Positions 56,955-63,764 of a stretch of DNA of 64,000 bases are shown piece by piece. The DNA lies in NCBI GenBank assembly GCA_003265895.1, contig QFBS01000002.1, positions 1 through 64,000 on the forward strand, read 5' to 3'. Every line of letters begins with the position of its first letter. Positions within the stretch are counted from its first letter, which is position 1. This DNA is from Candidatus Marinamargulisbacteria bacterium SCGC AG-410-N11 (GTDB taxonomy: Bacteria; Margulisbacteria; Marinamargulisbacteria; GCA-2716485; AG-410-N11). The translations under genes and the position numbers were made by a program. The notes under the pieces were generated by a model, which saw only the letters and a list, made by a program, of their open reading frames with translations, was not told where the DNA came from and did no database searches.

Positions 56955-57015
56955 TAAAATATTTTGAATCGCTAAAATCCTAGGTTATACTTAATAAGTG
57001 ACTTGGAGAAATAAT

Positions 57016-58374
57016 ATGAATAATGAAAACGAAGAGTTATTGCATTACCAAGAATCAATAAAGCTATCTTCTCGATTAATAATTAGTAAAAAGTTAGCTA
57101 TTGTAGGAGCTTTAATTTCTTGTCCCTATATTTTTTTGTTTTCCTATTTTAAAATTACTTTATTAACCTATTATATTCCCTTTTCAATTGGTTGGTTTTT
57201 GCTAACCCTGTTCTTTTTAAAGATTAATAAAAATAATTTAGCAAGATTAAACTTAGTAGTATGTAGTTGTACTGGGTTAACAATTTTTTCTGCTTTTTGT
57301 GGTAAGGAGGCTGGCATTCACCTTGTGTTTTTTGCAATGATTATTTTACCAATGATTTTATTTGAGTTTAACCAAAGAATATGGATTTTTGTATCATCAA
57401 TATTTCCAGTTGTTGGGCTAATAAGTTCTCAAACGTTGATATTAGAACATCTTCCTAAAATGAATTTATCATATTTACAAACAAATATTTGTTACTATAG
57501 CTTTATTTGTGTGACAGTTCTTGTATTAATATTAGAAATTAGATTTTTTTGTGTTGCTTTAAATGGGATTGAACAGAAAATGATTACGATGTTTCAGCAA
57601 AATCGAAAATTAATGGATCATACACATAAAGTATCTCAGCAAGTAAGCTATGCAACATTAACCAAGGGTATCGCTCATGAGATCAGAAACCCCATGGCTA
57701 TTTTACATACAAGTGCTGAAATTTTAAAAGAATACAAAAATGTTCCTGATACAATTCAAGAGTTATTTGACTCAATTCAGTCTACCATTAAGCGAATTCT
57801 CAAAATTACAGATACATTATTAAGATATGGAGACTTATCAAGTAATGAACAAACAATATTTTCAGTTCACCCAGTCATAAAGGATTGTATTCGAATTATT
57901 AAGAATCAGAATCAACATAAAAAAATAGACTTTTTTACTAATTTACAAGCACAACTATTAATTAAAGGTGTTCCAAATCTAATCTATCAGATACTACAAA
58001 ATATTTTAATAAATAGTATGGAGGCAATATCTGAAAAAGGAAACATAACCATAACTACAGAGGATATGGACTTGAATCAAGTAAATAACAAAATCACAAA
58101 AGGGGTTGTGATTACAATTGAGGATTCTGGTTGTGGAATAGCATTAGGATCGATTTCTCAAGTAGTAAATCCATTTTATTCCACAAAGAAGTTAGCTATG
58201 GGATTAGGTCTTTCAAAAGTAGATCAAATTATTCAGGAACATGGCGGGAAATTAAAGATTAAATCAACTTTAAATAAAGGAACAAAGGTTTCGATTTATT
58301 TGCCATCGTGTAGCAAGAAAGATTTAGATGCTAGTAATAATATAGAGGCTAATCAAATAGCTAAAACAACGTAA
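57016..58374 (+). CDS. membrane sensor histidine kinase
   Basis: About 452 residues from the ATG at 57016, preceded by GGAG with a 7-nt spacer; an upstream GTG at 56998 is rejected. Six hydrophobic helices (about 25-175) form the sensor. A HisKA helix carries the phosphoacceptor in KGIAHEIRNPMAIL, and the ATPase has N-box QILQNILINSMEAIS, G1 EDSGCGIA, and G2 MGLGLSKVDQIIQEHGG. No response regulator gene is in the window, so its partner is elsewhere. It may be co-transcribed with the terpene synthase-like gene 61 nt upstream. Confidence 0.92.
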   Translation: MNNENEELLHYQESIKLSSRLIISKKLAIVGALISCPYIFLFSYFKITLLTYYIPFSIGWFLLTLFFLKINKNNLARLNLVVCSCTGLTIFSAFCGKEAGIHLVFFAMIILPMILFEFNQRIWIFVSSIFPVVGLISSQTLILEHLPKMNLSYLQTNICYYSFICVTVLVLILEIRFFCVALNGIEQKMITMFQQNRKLMDHTHKVSQQVSYATLTKGIAHEIRNPMAILHTSAEILKEYKNVPDTIQELFDSIQSTIKRILKITDTLLRYGDLSSNEQTIFSVHPVIKDCIRIIKNQNQHKKIDFFTNLQAQLLIKGVPNLIYQILQNILINSMEAISEKGNITITTEDMDLNQVNNKITKGVVITIEDSGCGIALGSISQVVNPFYSTKKLAMGLGLSKVDQIIQEHGGKLKIKSTLNKGTKVSIYLPSCSKKDLDASNNIEANQIAKTT

Positions 58375-58381
58375 TCTATCG

Positions 58382-59776
58382 TTATTGAGAGAGTTTATAA
58401 AAGCTAAAGTCTTTAATTGGAAAGTGAAGCAGATTAGATTGGAACAAGGAGTAGTTGATATGTTGATGCTGCTTTAATTCATTAGCATTTAAAATGTAAT
58501 TAACCTGTGAATTTAATAGGCGTCGATAAAGAATGTCATGTTCTGGATCGTATTTAATTAAGCATCGGTTAACAAGTTCGCCAACCGCTTTTCTTAATTT
58601 AATTTCTATATTATGAAGAGTGTTGGTGTCAGGATTATCTAAATGATTTAATGTTAAAAATAACTTAAATACCTTAGAAAACGATACTTCGCAGGACTCC
58701 ATACTTAATTGGCAAATAATATGTAATAAATGCCTAACCGACTCATCGGTATCTTCTAGTAAAAATTGAATGATTTCTTTTTCTGGATTACAACGAATTT
58801 TATTTGTAAGTGAAAGTATAATATTATTATTGTTCTTGTTTAGGTCTTGATGTTTATTGATAATACAAGCGCCAACCTGTACGGTTAATCTAGGGTTATT
58901 GACGATAGTATTTAGCAGGCCAATTCCCCAACCTTCATAAAATTCTCGTTTTAATTTCAATAAAATAGCAGGTTCTTTTAGTTCATTCGTAATCATTTGG
59001 TGTAAGTCTTCTACTGTTGCAAGTTGGTTACACTGTATAACACTAAGTTTCTTGTTATTAGCCCATTGGATGACATTTTTATCTCCAGTGGTAATAACAA
59101 TATTAGATTTTTGACCAGTAAACCAGTGTTGTAACGGTGTTTGTTGAAGAAATAGATCTTGTTGATTAATTAACCATGACCGAACACATTTATATATAAT
59201 AAATGAAGGCCCTCGTCTATCGAGTTCGATATTGATAGACTTAATCAGATTTAAATCAGATTGATGAGAAGGACTTGAAATACCAAGAATAGTAGCAACA
59301 GAAATTAAAGATTGTCTAAAGTGTTGAGGATTTTTACAATCAATCGAAAAAAAACTAGCATTTTTAGAATTAGCGATAATATCCTGACCAACATTGCGTG
59401 CTGTACTAAATTTGCCAATACCACCTGCTCCGTCTAGGATTGCTATTTTATTATTTTGAAGCACATCTTTTAATAATAGTTTAGCTCGAATAGACCCCAC
59501 ATGGTCACCCTTTAACGGATTTATATTTTGTAAAAAACCTTTTCGACAAGGGGCTGGCTGTAACTTTTTAAGTTTTTCTGATAAATCACCACTAACAATT
59601 GCGTATACTGCACCAGAACAAAAACCTGCAATTCCTAATAAAGCTGTTGGATAGGCCACTTTATAATAGCGATCACTATGAATTGTACGTTTAGGAACTT
59701 GGTAAGGAAATGGGCGTATACTAGGAGGTCTTTTTTTTAAATAAGACCTAGATACTAGTAATGATGTTCGAATCAA
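58382..59776 (-). CDS. membrane-anchored STAND (NB-ARC-like) NTPase
   Basis: A 464-residue protein. One hydrophobic helix (about 48-66, TALLGIAGFCSGAVYAIV) follows a basic N terminus. A P-loop DGAGGIGKFSTA (Lys122) resembles the NB-ARC GMGGIGKTTLA but the residue after lysine is Phe, not Thr/Ser. PSFIIYKCV and NIVITTGDKN follow as Walker B/sensor regions, where the Walker B acid is also not obvious. The C-terminal ~200 residues are helical, like an ARC/winged-helix plus degenerate repeats. Both changes suggest weak or lost hydrolysis. The start is a TTG. STAND proteins act as switch sensors, some in phage defence. Confidence 0.6.
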   Translation of the reverse strand: MIRTSLLVSRSYLKKRPPSIRPFPYQVPKRTIHSDRYYKVAYPTALLGIAGFCSGAVYAIVSGDLSEKLKKLQPAPCRKGFLQNINPLKGDHVGSIRAKLLLKDVLQNNKIAILDGAGGIGKFSTARNVGQDIIANSKNASFFSIDCKNPQHFRQSLISVATILGISSPSHQSDLNLIKSINIELDRRGPSFIIYKCVRSWLINQQDLFLQQTPLQHWFTGQKSNIVITTGDKNVIQWANNKKLSVIQCNQLATVEDLHQMITNELKEPAILLKLKREFYEGWGIGLLNTIVNNPRLTVQVGACIINKHQDLNKNNNNIILSLTNKIRCNPEKEIIQFLLEDTDESVRHLLHIICQLSMESCEVSFSKVFKLFLTLNHLDNPDTNTLHNIEIKLRKAVGELVNRCLIKYDPEHDILYRRLLNSQVNYILNANELKQHQHINYSLFQSNLLHFPIKDFSFYKLSQ

Positions 59777-60071: not shown

Positions 60072-61976
60072 ATGAGTAAAGTTCAAAACTATGGAACAGA
60101 AAGGGTATCTTTAGGACTAAAGAAAAGTTTAAAAGTTATATTTCCTTATGCCTGGAATAAACTACTTGATCAATTTAAATCGGTATGGTTTATTATTACA
60201 TATTTAATTATTTTTCAAACATTAGTATTAAATTTACCAATTGTTTATTCGCTAACCATTTCATTTGGAATATTTTGGGTTATAGTAGGGTTATCATTCT
60301 TTATGGAAGGGTTAGAGATTGGTTTAATGCCTTTTGGCGAAATTATAGGATCCGTATTACCTAAAAAGTCTCCATTACCAGGTATTTTATTATTTGCTTT
60401 GCTATTGGGTATTGGAGCTACATTTGCAGAACCCGCTATTGCCGTATTAAAGGCTGCGGGATCTTCGGTATCTCCAGATAAAGCCCCGTTATTATATAGT
60501 TTACTAAATGATTTTTCCGGACAGTTAGTATTAATGGTTGGGCTAGGGGTTGGCATTGCTGTTATGCTTGGCGCCTTAAGATTTATGTATGGATGGTCAT
60601 TGAAAATGTTAATTATACCCATGGTTCTTTTGTTATCAGGATTAACAATTTATGCTCATTTTAATCCAGCAATAAGTGCAACAATTGGGCTTGCATGGGA
60701 CTGTGGAGCCGTAACAACAGGTCCTGTTACTGTTCCATTAGTATTAGCCTTAGGAATAGGTATTTGTCGAATTGTTAGTAAAGGTGATGATGGCGGTTCT
60801 GGTTTTGGAGTTGTAACATTAGCTTCTTTATTTCCCATTTTAGCCGTTTTAATTTTAAGTATTTATCATTTTCATGCTCAAGATTATGTTGGACAACCAA
60901 ACTACAAAGGAACTGCAGTTATTAGTAATATTTCAGAAAGCTATAAAGAATCGTCTCAAAATATAACGTTTGGGTTTACACAAACAGAATATGAAGAATA
61001 TTTAAAATCTAAGAATTTGCCTAAGGATACAGAAAAAGAGTACACAGGAACAACATCAAGGCTAGAAGGTGGCAAAATAATTGTTGAAAATGTTAGTGCA
61101 ATCTATTCCAAAAAGAGTAAAGATAATATTGATAAAAATTCATTGAAGCATTTAAACCCTGATACAAACGGTTTAGCAACTTTAAAGGGCGCCGTATTAA
61201 CAGCTGCAATAGCCATTATTCCGTTATCGTTATTTTTATTTATAACCTTAAGGTTCTTTTTACGAGAAAAAGTTCCTCATGCCGATGAAATTTCAATAGG
61301 AATTTTATTTGCTGTAGTAGGGATGGCTATATTTGTAATTGGAATTGAATTAGGTTTAACTCCTTTAGGCGAACAGTTAGGAAGTAACATTCCATCAACA
61401 TTTACAACTATTTCACCGTGGGGGTTAGATGGCCATAAAATGGCATTAACATCAGATTCTGTTGGTAAAATAATAGCATGTGTATTTGCTTTCTTTTTAG
61501 GATTTGGAGCTACATTAGCTGAACCTGCACTTAATGCATTAGGCGCTACTGTAGAAAAGATTACTACAGGTGCCTTTAAAAAGAGCTTATTAATGAATAC
61601 GGTAGCCAGTGGAGTTGGAATAGGAATTGCAACAGGAGTATTTAAAATTGCATATAATATTCCATTACAATACTTGTTAATTCCACCTTATATAATTTTA
61701 ATATTCTTAACAATTGCCTCTTCAGAAGATTTTGTGAACTTTGGTTGGGATAGTGCAGGGGTAACCACAGGACCAATAACCGTTCCCTTAGTATTAGCAA
61801 TGGGCTTAGGCGTTGGAGCGAACGTGCCGGGTGTAATTGATGGGTTCGGAGTTTTATCATTAGCCTCAGTAGCACCAATTATTTCCGTTTTAATTGTTGG
61901 GATAATTGTGAGACTAAAGTCGTCATCAAAAGGCAAAAAGCCAAAACCCAGTAATATCGAAGGGAGTCAGTCATGA
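60072..61976 (+). CDS. DUF1538 family membrane transporter-like protein
   Basis: A 634-residue polytopic membrane protein with an internal duplication. Each half has a FMEGLEIGLMPFGE-like and GIGATFAEPAIAVL-like helix pair (second copy VIGIELGLTPLGE and GFGATLAEPALNAL) and a re-entrant-looking GAVTTGPVTVPLVLALG (second copy GVTTGPITVPLVLAMG). The duplicated, inverted-looking repeats with TTGP loops strongly suggest a transporter or channel. A soluble linker of about 90 residues joins the halves. The substrate is unknown. It overlaps the PII-like gene by 4 nt, so a PII-type protein probably regulates it. Confidence 0.88.
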   Translation: MSKVQNYGTERVSLGLKKSLKVIFPYAWNKLLDQFKSVWFIITYLIIFQTLVLNLPIVYSLTISFGIFWVIVGLSFFMEGLEIGLMPFGEIIGSVLPKKSPLPGILLFALLLGIGATFAEPAIAVLKAAGSSVSPDKAPLLYSLLNDFSGQLVLMVGLGVGIAVMLGALRFMYGWSLKMLIIPMVLLLSGLTIYAHFNPAISATIGLAWDCGAVTTGPVTVPLVLALGIGICRIVSKGDDGGSGFGVVTLASLFPILAVLILSIYHFHAQDYVGQPNYKGTAVISNISESYKESSQNITFGFTQTEYEEYLKSKNLPKDTEKEYTGTTSRLEGGKIIVENVSAIYSKKSKDNIDKNSLKHLNPDTNGLATLKGAVLTAAIAIIPLSLFLFITLRFFLREKVPHADEISIGILFAVVGMAIFVIGIELGLTPLGEQLGSNIPSTFTTISPWGLDGHKMALTSDSVGKIIACVFAFFLGFGATLAEPALNALGATVEKITTGAFKKSLLMNTVASGVGIGIATGVFKIAYNIPLQYLLIPPYIILIFLTIASSEDFVNFGWDSAGVTTGPITVPLVLAMGLGVGANVPGVIDGFGVLSLASVAPIISVLIVGIIVRLKSSSKGKKPKPSNIEGSQS

Positions 61977-63076
61977 ATAGTATCAATAATGGATATACTT
62001 TATTAAGAGTCATTATTAATAAAAGTGTATCCAATAAAATAATTACAGATGAAATAATTACTCTATGTGAAACCATTGTAATGGTTAAAGCTAGAGGGAC
62101 TTTAGTAAAAGACTCATGGTATCAACGGTACTTACCAACAATTAATCCAGAACAAGAAGTTGTTGAATTGATGGTTCCCAATAAAAATATTAATCGAGTA
62201 ACAGATATTATAATAGAAAAAGGTAAGTTAGATCGATATGGAAAAGGAGCAATTTATACTCATAGCTGTGAACAAACAATAAGTAAAGGCCCCTTAATAG
62301 AGTCTAGTAATAGCCAGCCATTAACCAATAAGAATATGATTAATGGGCTTACATCAATTTATTGCGTTGTTCAAAAAGGAAATGCTGAAAAAATTGCTAG
62401 GGTAGCTTTAAATGAAGGGAGCCATGGCCCTATCATATCTTATGCATTAGGAAAAGGTATTCGAGATCGATTAGGATTAATTAGAATTGCTATTAATCCT
62501 GAAAAAGAATTTATCTCAGTGGTAGTTGACGATTACATTGCCGATAAAATGTTTGATGCAATGATTACGGCAGGACACTTAAACGTTGCCGGAGCAGGCT
62601 TTATTTACATGATGCCTGTTGATCAAGGAATGATCAATATTAGAACCGTTCATAGAGCTGGCCACTCAACTGAAATGCTAGAACTGTTAATAAAGGAAAT
62701 GGATAATTTAAAAGGTAGTAAACGGTGGCGACAAGTTGAAATTAGAACTGATGAATCAAAGTATGAAAATAGAGAATATTTATTAGATTTAGTCAGATTA
62801 ACATGCATAGCACCTAGAGGACAGGGAGAAGAACTTGTTAAAAAGTCGTTATCTAAAGGAGCTCCCGGCGCAAACATTTTTCATGGAGTTGAGTTAGGTA
62901 AAGAATTTTTAGAGTTTAAAAAGAGTAGTAAACATAATCTAGAAAAAGAAGTCATAGAAATGACAATTCAAAAAGATAAAGTAACAGATATTACTCAAGT
63001 AATGCAATCTGCAAGTGAACAAGATTTGCTTTTTTATACTCAAAATGTGCCAAAAGCATTCACATATTTAGGATAA
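61973..63076 (+). CDS. triple PII-like domain protein
   Basis: A 367-residue protein that reads as three PII-like ferredoxin folds in tandem. Unit 1 (~8-105) ends YGKGAIYTHSCEQ; unit 2 (~120-225) has VVQKGNAEKIARVALNEGSHGPIISYALGKG and ends VAGAGFIYMMPV, matching GKxGxGxIxV-type PII ends; unit 3 (~240-365) has IAPRGQGEELVKKSLSKGAPGANIFHG. PII proteins are normally ~110 residues and trimeric; a triple fusion could fold as a built-in trimer. Coupled to the DUF1538 gene by a 4-nt overlap, as AmtB-GlnK are paired. Ligand unknown. Confidence 0.8.
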   Translation: MNSINNGYTLLRVIINKSVSNKIITDEIITLCETIVMVKARGTLVKDSWYQRYLPTINPEQEVVELMVPNKNINRVTDIIIEKGKLDRYGKGAIYTHSCEQTISKGPLIESSNSQPLTNKNMINGLTSIYCVVQKGNAEKIARVALNEGSHGPIISYALGKGIRDRLGLIRIAINPEKEFISVVVDDYIADKMFDAMITAGHLNVAGAGFIYMMPVDQGMINIRTVHRAGHSTEMLELLIKEMDNLKGSKRWRQVEIRTDESKYENREYLLDLVRLTCIAPRGQGEELVKKSLSKGAPGANIFHGVELGKEFLEFKKSSKHNLEKEVIEMTIQKDKVTDITQVMQSASEQDLLFYTQNVPKAFTYLG

Positions 63077-63119: not shown

Positions 63120-63764
63120 ATGAAGTATGTAGCGATTATGTTTAGTTTAGTTCTATTTTTTTCCAGTCAAATAATATCGAACAATAATATGTTATTTATT
63201 GAAACGAGCGAAGGTAATGCGGTTACTTTAAATTGGCAGGTAACGAATTTAAAAACAAAACAAATTCAATATACGCTAAACAACAGGCCTGAAAAGATAA
63301 CCATGATTGGTAAAGGTGCGAGTGATTCTTGGTCTAAAGAGTCTAAAACCGAAAATATAACATTAACTAGAAAAGGCAATATTGTATTAGCGGAAGGAAT
63401 TAGAGACGGTAAAAAGATAGACAAAGAGATTAAAATTAGTGACCTAGATTGGATGGCTTCCCCAGGTTTTTATTTAAAAGACTTTATTATATCCAAAGAG
63501 CAAAAAAAATATATATGGCTAATTAATACAGATAGCTTAAAAGCATCTAAAATGGTAGTTACCAAAGTTGATGAATATGAGCGAGCGTTTAATGAAAAAC
63601 AAGAGAAAGTTATTGTCGTTGAAATGAAGCCAGTCGGATTGAAAGGATTACTTTGGAAAGCAAGTTATCATTTTATTTCAGATGGAACTTACATCTATTA
63701 TAAAGGATTAAAAGGGCCACCTGGAACACCAGAATTTGTTATTAAACGGATGCAGGCGCAATAA
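63120..63764 (+). CDS. exported protein, unknown function
   Basis: A 214-residue protein with a signal peptide (KYVAIMFSLVLFFSSQIIS) and a mature part rich in beta strands. LNWQVTNLKTKQIQYTLN, FYLKDFIISKEQKKYIWLIN and FISDGTYIYYKGLKGPPGTPEF suggest a beta-sandwich or clam-like periplasmic fold. No cysteine lipobox, so periplasmic or outer-membrane associated. A strong AAGGAG ribosome site and TATAAT precede it; the gap to the PII-like gene is 43 nt, so it may share or have its own promoter. Family not recognised. Confidence 0.6.
   Translation: MKYVAIMFSLVLFFSSQIISNNNMLFIETSEGNAVTLNWQVTNLKTKQIQYTLNNRPEKITMIGKGASDSWSKESKTENITLTRKGNIVLAEGIRDGKKIDKEIKISDLDWMASPGFYLKDFIISKEQKKYIWLINTDSLKASKMVVTKVDEYERAFNEKQEKVIVVEMKPVGLKGLLWKASYHFISDGTYIYYKGLKGPPGTPEFVIKRMQAQ

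Follow-up and report, generated by a model that had tools for sequence, protein, structure and literature searches.

What is the role of a putative regulator of the PII superfamily encoded directly behind a DUF1538 membrane protein, and why are its three domains joined in one chain? This question is raised by a gene pair of Candidatus Marinamargulisbacteria bacterium SCGC AG-410-N11 (assembly GCA_003265895.1, contig QFBS01000002.1). The 64,000 nucleotides at positions 1 to 64,000 of the forward strand were analysed and are called the window. The source assembly comprises 1.5 Mb in 52 contigs with a completeness of 55.7%. A sequence-only reading had proposed two genes overlapping by 4 nt, one for an internally duplicated, transporter-like protein and one for three PII-like domains in a single chain. 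Both genes and the overlap were found exactly at the proposed positions; the start of the PII gene sits inside the stop codon of the DUF1538 gene (ATGA). The gene pair has the following features, partly taken from an AlphaFold2 (AF2) model.

60072..61976, + strand: double DUF1538 membrane protein of 634 amino acids with fused UmpA-like and UmpB-like halves (open reading frame, PF07556, NCBIfam, AF2)
61961..61966, + strand: AGGGAG, probably the ribosome-binding site for the PII gene (sequence)
61973..61976, + strand: stop/start overlap of the DUF1538 and PII genes, 4 bases, ATGA (sequence)
61973..63076, + strand: triple-PII protein of 367 amino acids (AF2, family of 40 members)

The 367-residue protein consists of three diverged PII domains, here called D1, D2 and D3. 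With the window's single sequence, Pfam reported PII in the middle third alone (E 9.1e-4, 19.8-20.0 bits, below the cut-off of 25), and no credible match was obtained for the D1 and D3 thirds. Since D1 and D3 were missed in this way, family profiles were used instead. Forty triple proteins, including that of the window, were collected and cut at the window residues given here.

61991..62284, + strand: PII domain D1, residues 7-104 (profile against the PDB: PII 9p1x_H, E 1.1e-5; hhalign to D2 98.8%)
62342..62650, + strand: PII domain D2, residues 124-226, with the conserved T-loop; it corresponds to the small PII protein A of other genomes (PF00543 E 0.001; hhalign to A 99.9%)
62666..62731, + strand: helix and WR motif, both conserved, in the stretch joining D2 to D3, residues 232-253 (AF2, alignment)
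62780..63073, + strand: PII domain D3, residues 270-367 (profile against the PDB: PII 2o66_A, E 1.8e-5)

A profile search of each third had been suggested by the sequence-only reading, and all three thirds gave PII. Solved PII chains were matched with E 1.1e-5 (D1), 1.2e-5 (D2) and 1.8e-5 (D3). The family profiles were aligned by hhalign near full length with 98.8% for D1-D2, 98.4% for D2-D3 and 96.9% for D1-D3. As controls, 30 column-shuffled profiles each of D1 and D3 were compared with D2 and with A and did not exceed 3.9%; with reversed profiles the maximum was 1.3%. PF00543 detected 14/40 D1, 20/40 D2 and 3/40 D3 sequences at E <= 0.1, together with 37/37 of the small A and 8/33 of the small B proteins described below.

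The AF2 model of the triple protein (single chain, alignment of 40 rows) had a pLDDT of 84.0 and a pTM of 0.82. D1 showed the elements E8-16 H17-31 E34-42 E60-69 H70-84 E92-98, and the same order was found in D2 and D3. Each unit has the beta-alpha-beta-beta-alpha-beta fold of PII according to this element order and, for D2 and D3, according to structure comparison (VIA). D2 matched PII 3lf0 with Z 6.7 and a root mean square deviation (rmsd) of 2.9 over 92 residues. The matches of D3 were PstA, SbtB and PII with Z of about 6.2-6.4 and rmsd 1.6-1.9 over 85-90 residues, among them PstA 4wk1 (Z 6.4, rmsd 1.6 over 85) and SbtB 7obj (Z 6.4, rmsd 1.8 over 90). D1 had no VIA row of its own, hence its fold is based on the element order of the model and on the sequence profile. 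A pTM of 0.82 for a chain of three domains indicates a confidently placed arrangement. The predicted packing, most likely as one intramolecular PII trimer, would make the chain a pseudo-trimer. VIA rows with Z 7-8 for the PII chain belonged to AcrD, AcrB and heavy-metal efflux pump chains. These chains contain ferredoxin-like domains; the matches were taken as such common domains, and a kinship with the pumps was rejected.

The three domains are not equivalent. That they have diverged from each other, as proposed from the sequence, is seen in the T-loop as well as in the ATP-loop. For the same 40 sequences, the T-loop of D2 contains 3.15 bits of information per column, that of D1 1.92 and that of D3 1.28. 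No other stretch in the comparison is as conserved as this D2 loop; the D3 loop was also poorly predicted. Thus, a strongly conserved T-loop is kept by the middle domain D2 alone. GxG of the ATP-loop is present in D1 of 39/40, in D2 of 40/40 and in D3 of 1/40 chains. The clefts, which according to the sequence-only reading could bind different ligands, must therefore differ from one another. In D1 and D2, GxG is followed by A/S/T or F/I/Y, without K in any chain, which differs from the canonical GDGK. One lysine of D2, kept in 37/40 chains, was aligned by HMMER to the lysine of PKVK in PII (K58). The pattern Y[KR]G[AS][AE]Y represents the uridylylation motif of the PII T-loop. It was detected in 0/40 triple chains, and a tyrosine occurs in the D2 T-loop of 1/40. 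With 367-411 residues and three diverged domains the chains also deviate from the canonical homotrimer chain of about 112 residues. Furthermore, the helix and the WR motif that lie between D2 and D3 are extra to PII; their residues D244, W252 and R253 are found in 40/40.

The partner of this chain is a double DUF1538 protein. PF07556 matched the whole membrane protein with E 5.7e-111 and 369.3 bits (cut-off 22.6) in two stretches. The internal duplication and the loops of the TTGPxTVPLVLA type in both halves, noted beforehand from the sequence, are both confirmed.

60192..60863, + strand: first DUF1538 repeat (E 3.3e-55)
60714..60749, + strand: TTGPVTVPLVLA, residues 215-226, which breaks helices 205-214 / 220-235 and follows invariant D210
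60915..61151, + strand: extra-membrane linker between the halves, residues 282-360, with a small beta region (DSSP strands 320-347, low pLDDT, charge count)
61230..61907, + strand: second DUF1538 repeat (E 1.6e-58)
61764..61799, + strand: TTGPITVPLVLA, residues 565-576, in the second half after invariant D560

T215, T216, G217 and T220 as well as T565, T566, G567, P568 and T570 are invariant in 34/34 aligned DUF1538 sequences. The same applies to two aspartates (D210, D560) and four glutamates (E79, E120, E484, E552). In the AF2 model of this protein (pLDDT 82.5, pTM 0.80), the AEP and TTGP motifs of each half are located at helix breaks beside E120, D210, E484 and D560. The best NCBIfam matches (NF041627/NF041628 set) were UmpA for the N-terminal half (224.4 bits) and UmpB for the C-terminal half (181.7 bits). 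UmpAB of Halomonas zhaodongensis consists of two DUF1538 proteins. According to the accessible text they work as a heterodimer, catalyse Na+(Li+,K+)/H+ antiport that depends on pH, and restore salt tolerance to E. coli KNabc (PMC5484666).

Each DUF1538 half of the model crosses the membrane seven times when the broken helix is counted as one, and seven crossings are also given for each UmpAB subunit (PMC5484666, accessible text). With an odd number of crossings and a non-membrane linker, the halves would be antiparallel with both termini inside, and the linker would be periplasmic. Mean loop charges were 16.9 K+R and 9.8 D+E inside and 11.6 K+R and 19.8 D+E outside. The window's own protein has only 17 K+R inside versus 15 outside, so its charges support this topology weakly. 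Searches against solved structures gave no sequence match to any DUF1538 chain, nothing better than E 0.016 with TM ~0.13 by Foldseek, and a best VIA match of Z 5.3. The Na+/Ca2+ exchanger NCX_Mj was considered as a relative in fold and rejected, as its VIA match (Z 4.2 over 171 residues) is too weak. The lack of a structural match does not establish a new fold.

The pairing of DUF1538 with PII is general and near-universal. Genome contigs were scanned with a DUF1538 alignment, which gave 550 confirmed loci; the 80 that most resembled the window protein were examined. Three contigs end within DUF1538 (L043, L049, L059), leaving 77 testable loci. PII adjoins DUF1538 directly downstream at 77/77 of these, in many phyla. 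A complete D1-D2-D3 chain was found at 38 loci and the start of such a chain at the contig end at two; 34 loci contain two separate small PII genes, A and B. The remainder are L076 with A and a tandem B-B protein, L067 with a truncated A and L048 with A in two frames at the contig end. This first survey is partly circular, since the models, which also served in the second survey below, were built from its own loci and the window (for A also from the plasmid loci L003 and L004). The Pfam matches of A (37/37) and the PDB profile searches are independent of these models. An extra D3-like match between D1 and D2 was observed in two loci of Spirochaetota (L042:5072-6580, L047:5060-6568), which were counted as triple.

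A second survey covered one class around a Gammaproteobacteria record, in which 125/369 genomes were DUF1538-positive, and the 30 best-scoring loci were taken. One PII gene follows the DUF1538 pair or the fused DUF1538 gene at 29/30 loci; the other (L112) has only ~176 bases past the gene before its contig ends. Both surveys agree with the expectation of the sequence-only reading that PII-like genes regularly stand beside DUF1538. The number of PII domains varies. Split DUF1538 pairs of plasmids are followed by one PII of 112-122 residues, and fused DUF1538 of Clostridia by a chain of 222 residues in which the PII domain occurs twice. At L076 (5162-6277) one A precedes a 243-residue protein with two B1 domains (E 3.5e-31, 5.9e-29), which makes three PII domains in all, the number also present in the triple chain. 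Further A + B-B loci were sought in three genomes of the phylum of L076; the other two carry separate A and B. One genome (G490) possesses three DUF1538 modules, with one PII, A+B and triple PII (L127, L132, L133). In the class of the window, DUF1538 was detected in 1/27 genomes searched, which is the window's own.

How these forms are related was examined with profiles and trees. hhalign gave 99.9% for D2-A. D1 was about equally close to B1 (99.0%) and A (98.9%), and D3 matched A (98.9%) better than B1 (94.5%). The domain tree (98 domains as a chosen subset, 101 columns, many forks open) contains one group each with SH-aLRT values of 97 for D2, 98 for D3, 90 for A, 85 for B1 and 99 for B2; D1 needs two changes, though the starred branches force one only. 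As D2 and D3 each form one clade across phyla, the order D1-D2-D3 looks old: it seems to have one origin, and the positions appear to have kept their identity. L076 is an apparent intermediate between separate A and B genes and the triple chain. Its domain count, taken with the triple chain, points to a trimer in which one subunit is of A type and two are not. The tree of DUF1538 (77 rows) was calculated quickly and has long branches and an uncertain root. The A+B rows form one clade in it (100), nested among the triple-chain rows, which need two changes. The window is placed beside Bdellovibrionota and a record of Flavobacteriales (SH-aLRT 96, 95), but L036 of the same phylum, Candidatus Margulisiibacteriota, beside Treponema (97). 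This split grouping suggests that the module has moved between phyla.

Taking these results together, the reading that we hold with slightly better than even confidence is a two-gene module. It would consist of a DUF1538 transporter of the UmpAB type, most likely for Na+ (Li+, K+)/H+, and a dedicated PII trimer which gates it with the T-loop of D2. The DUF1538 protein would move Na+ (or Li+, K+) in exchange for H+. The PII domains would fold together into a trimer with three unequal subunits at the cytoplasmic face of the transporter, and the conserved T-loop of D2 may enter or lock the transport path. What this loop does would be decided by small molecules in the unequal interdomain clefts, probably adenine nucleotides. 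Symmetry mismatch may have driven the asymmetry: on a transporter of two unequal halves, each subunit of a three-fold PII would meet a different surface. The subunits would then be free to specialise, from one PII to A + B and to D1-D2-D3. As a wider and more tentative proposal, to which we give somewhat less than an even chance, these loci would form a widespread, so far undescribed class of PII-gated ion antiporters with mismatch-driven asymmetric PII (one; 1:2 of A and B; D1-D2-D3), an effector T-loop in D2 and unequal clefts.

Cation exchange would be suited by the invariant D210, D560 and four glutamates. Na_H_Exchanger proteins were found beside four DUF1538-PII operons (L016:2-1528, L083:934-3384, L084:661-3147, L086:4014-6482), and three of the four carry a C-terminal cNMP-binding domain. 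A NQR2/RnfD gene is present in the window's genome. DUF1538 is among the families linked to growth pH in the accessible text of PMC13255231. These neighbours, the NQR2/RnfD gene and the pH-linked listing are hints of cation exchange near the module. Concerning the ligand, a CHASE2 cyclase and a cNMP-binding protein were detected by Pfam upstream of one alphaproteobacterial DUF1538-A-B operon (L026:105-3383). BLAST clusters placed similar genes near up to five more alphaproteobacterial operons (L028, L061, L062, L066, L088). With such neighbours an adenine nucleotide is no more than a fair guess.

There are precedents for PII acting on transporters, which may serve as analogies. NrtBCD is an ABC importer and no homotrimer, and it is combined with an ordinary single-domain PII. 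According to the entry title of PDB 8wm7, PII is located on this transporter. Two different PII proteins occur in PDB 9p1x, the best PDB match of the D1 profile, with 12 chains of 105 amino acids and 6 of 125. We take them to be NifI1/NifI2 of nitrogenase regulation. Their 2:1 chain count is the one that A + B-B would give; unlike the domains of the fused triple protein, they are separate chains. As in UmpAB, two DUF1538 units would form one transporter in the window, with the N-terminal half closest to UmpA and the C-terminal half to UmpB. In contrast to UmpAB, the halves are fused via a linker and followed by a three-domain PII, whereas related split pairs elsewhere carry one PII. SbtA-SbtB also combines a PII-like protein with a Na+-linked transporter, and the structures matched by D3 include SbtB; unlike here, SbtA and SbtB are both trimers and SbtB has a single domain (PMC10710835, accessible text).

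The sequence-only reading had compared the overlapping genes with AmtB-GlnK, where a PII gene is likewise coupled directly to that of a transporter. Both AmtB and GlnK are trimeric and bind 1:1 (PMC10710835, accessible text). In the window the transporter has two unequal halves, and PII has three unequal domains without the GDGK lysine and the uridylylation motif. The partner is DUF1538 and no ammonium transporter (PF00909). Neither AmtB (PF00909) nor a canonical PII was found in the window's genome, which is 55.7% complete. The comparison thus holds as an analogy only.

Several points weigh against the gated antiporter module. PII control seems limited to transporters able to act as trimers (PMC10710835, accessible text), and such a rule would exclude a transporter of two halves; the NrtBCD-PII entry speaks against the rule. 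The scores of 224.4 and 181.7 bits are far below the equivalog cut-offs of UmpA and UmpB (490 and 500 bits), so the DUF1538 substrate may differ here. UmpAB is active in E. coli without its own PII, which is therefore not needed for transport. In the cloned fragment with its 4.2-kb insert the last open reading frame is ORF4, umpB (PMC5484666, accessible text), so any PII gene behind it would have been left out of the clone. The word 'PII' was not found in a word search of the accessible text of that paper. The two PII domains per chain of Clostridia fit poorly to three domains as one trimer unless more copies are involved, and nothing in the A+B operons favours a 1:2 trimer over two homotrimers. 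With its uncertain root the DUF1538 tree permits fusion or fission, so that single PII, A+B and triple PII may have arisen in another order. Binding, structure or transport data for DUF1538-PII pairs did not turn up.

Another substrate is the possible, if unlikely, alternative to be weighed first. In this case the cargo of DUF1538 would be an anion, bicarbonate or a metabolite, with the PII chain as an SbtB-like sensor of that pathway. The missed UmpA and UmpB cut-offs agree with this, as does the alignment of D3 to SbtB, which is as good as that to PstA and PII. Moreover, the literature found contains one assayed DUF1538 pair only. The six invariant acidic residues, the growth-pH listing and the Na_H_Exchanger neighbours point instead to the exchange of cations and protons.

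The PII chain could also be a constant cytoplasmic subunit, an always-bound gating ring like the RCK ring, rather than a reversible inhibitor of the GlnK kind. We regard this as unlikely. It would explain the near-fixed pairing, the missing uridylylation motif (0/40) and the stop and start codons, which overlap or nearly so. Among the 40 triple genes listed (start codons chosen by script; L009 repeats L036) 32 start between 38 bases before and 9 after the DUF1538 stop, and the gap in the window is -4. However, UmpAB alone transports in E. coli, and the PII fold elsewhere serves reversible binding (PMC10710835, accessible text).

It is quite improbable that the PII domains trimerise between chains, in assemblies of nine or more domains, and not within one chain. 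The two-domain chains of Clostridia must join between chains if they are trimeric, and AF2 covered a single chain only. On the other side, the pTM of 0.82 implies a confidently placed arrangement of the three domains, and A + B-B likewise totals three.

A triple PII serving as a PstA-type receptor of cyclic di-AMP (c-di-AMP) in the control of cation balance is very doubtful. D3 resembles PstA (rmsd 1.6 over 85 residues), and c-di-AMP synthase (PF02457) was found in 20/33 triple-chain genomes. It was not found in 13/33 of these and in 14/16 A+B genomes (2/16 with synthase); this split follows phylum, and genomes such as the window's are incomplete. c-di-AMP was rejected as a general ligand, since no synthase was found in 27/49 carrier genomes. 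Finally, a general nitrogen regulator standing beside DUF1538 by chance is hardly credible: the chain belongs to the PII superfamily, but it is paired with DUF1538 at every testable locus in many phyla, has no uridylylation motif and comes from a genome, 55.7% complete, in which AmtB was not found.

Further genes were observed near the pair in the window. A 214-residue protein with a signal-like start and without Pfam family is encoded at 63120-63764, 43 bases past the PII gene, and may belong to the same transcript. On the other side, at 56998-58374, lies a histidine kinase of the membrane that contains HisKA and HATPase_c and matches MASE7 weakly. It is followed at 58382-59776 (- strand) by a protein with a Walker-like GGIGKF motif, weak matches to AAA_22 and nSTAND3 and a possible membrane anchor near its start.

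The literature search gave nothing on the pairing of DUF1538 with PII, on triple, tandem, fused or heterotrimeric PII or on PII with antiporters; papers on the NifI and NrtBCD structures were not found either. No regulator of DUF1538 was met in the literature found. Single neighbours are already annotated by NCBI as 'P-II family nitrogen regulator'. Thus, the pairing of PII with a transporter is of a known kind and the adjacency is already visible in public records, while the regulator itself is unusual. If the wider proposal of a class of PII-gated antiporters is true, the 367-residue protein would be a PII trimer that occurs naturally as a single chain, and nucleotide or metabolite state would be wired to Na+/H+ homeostasis in a new way. 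Unlike in homotrimers, each cleft and each T-loop of a single-chain PII with unequal subunits could be mutated alone. Cross-talk of ligands among the three PII sites would thereby become directly testable.

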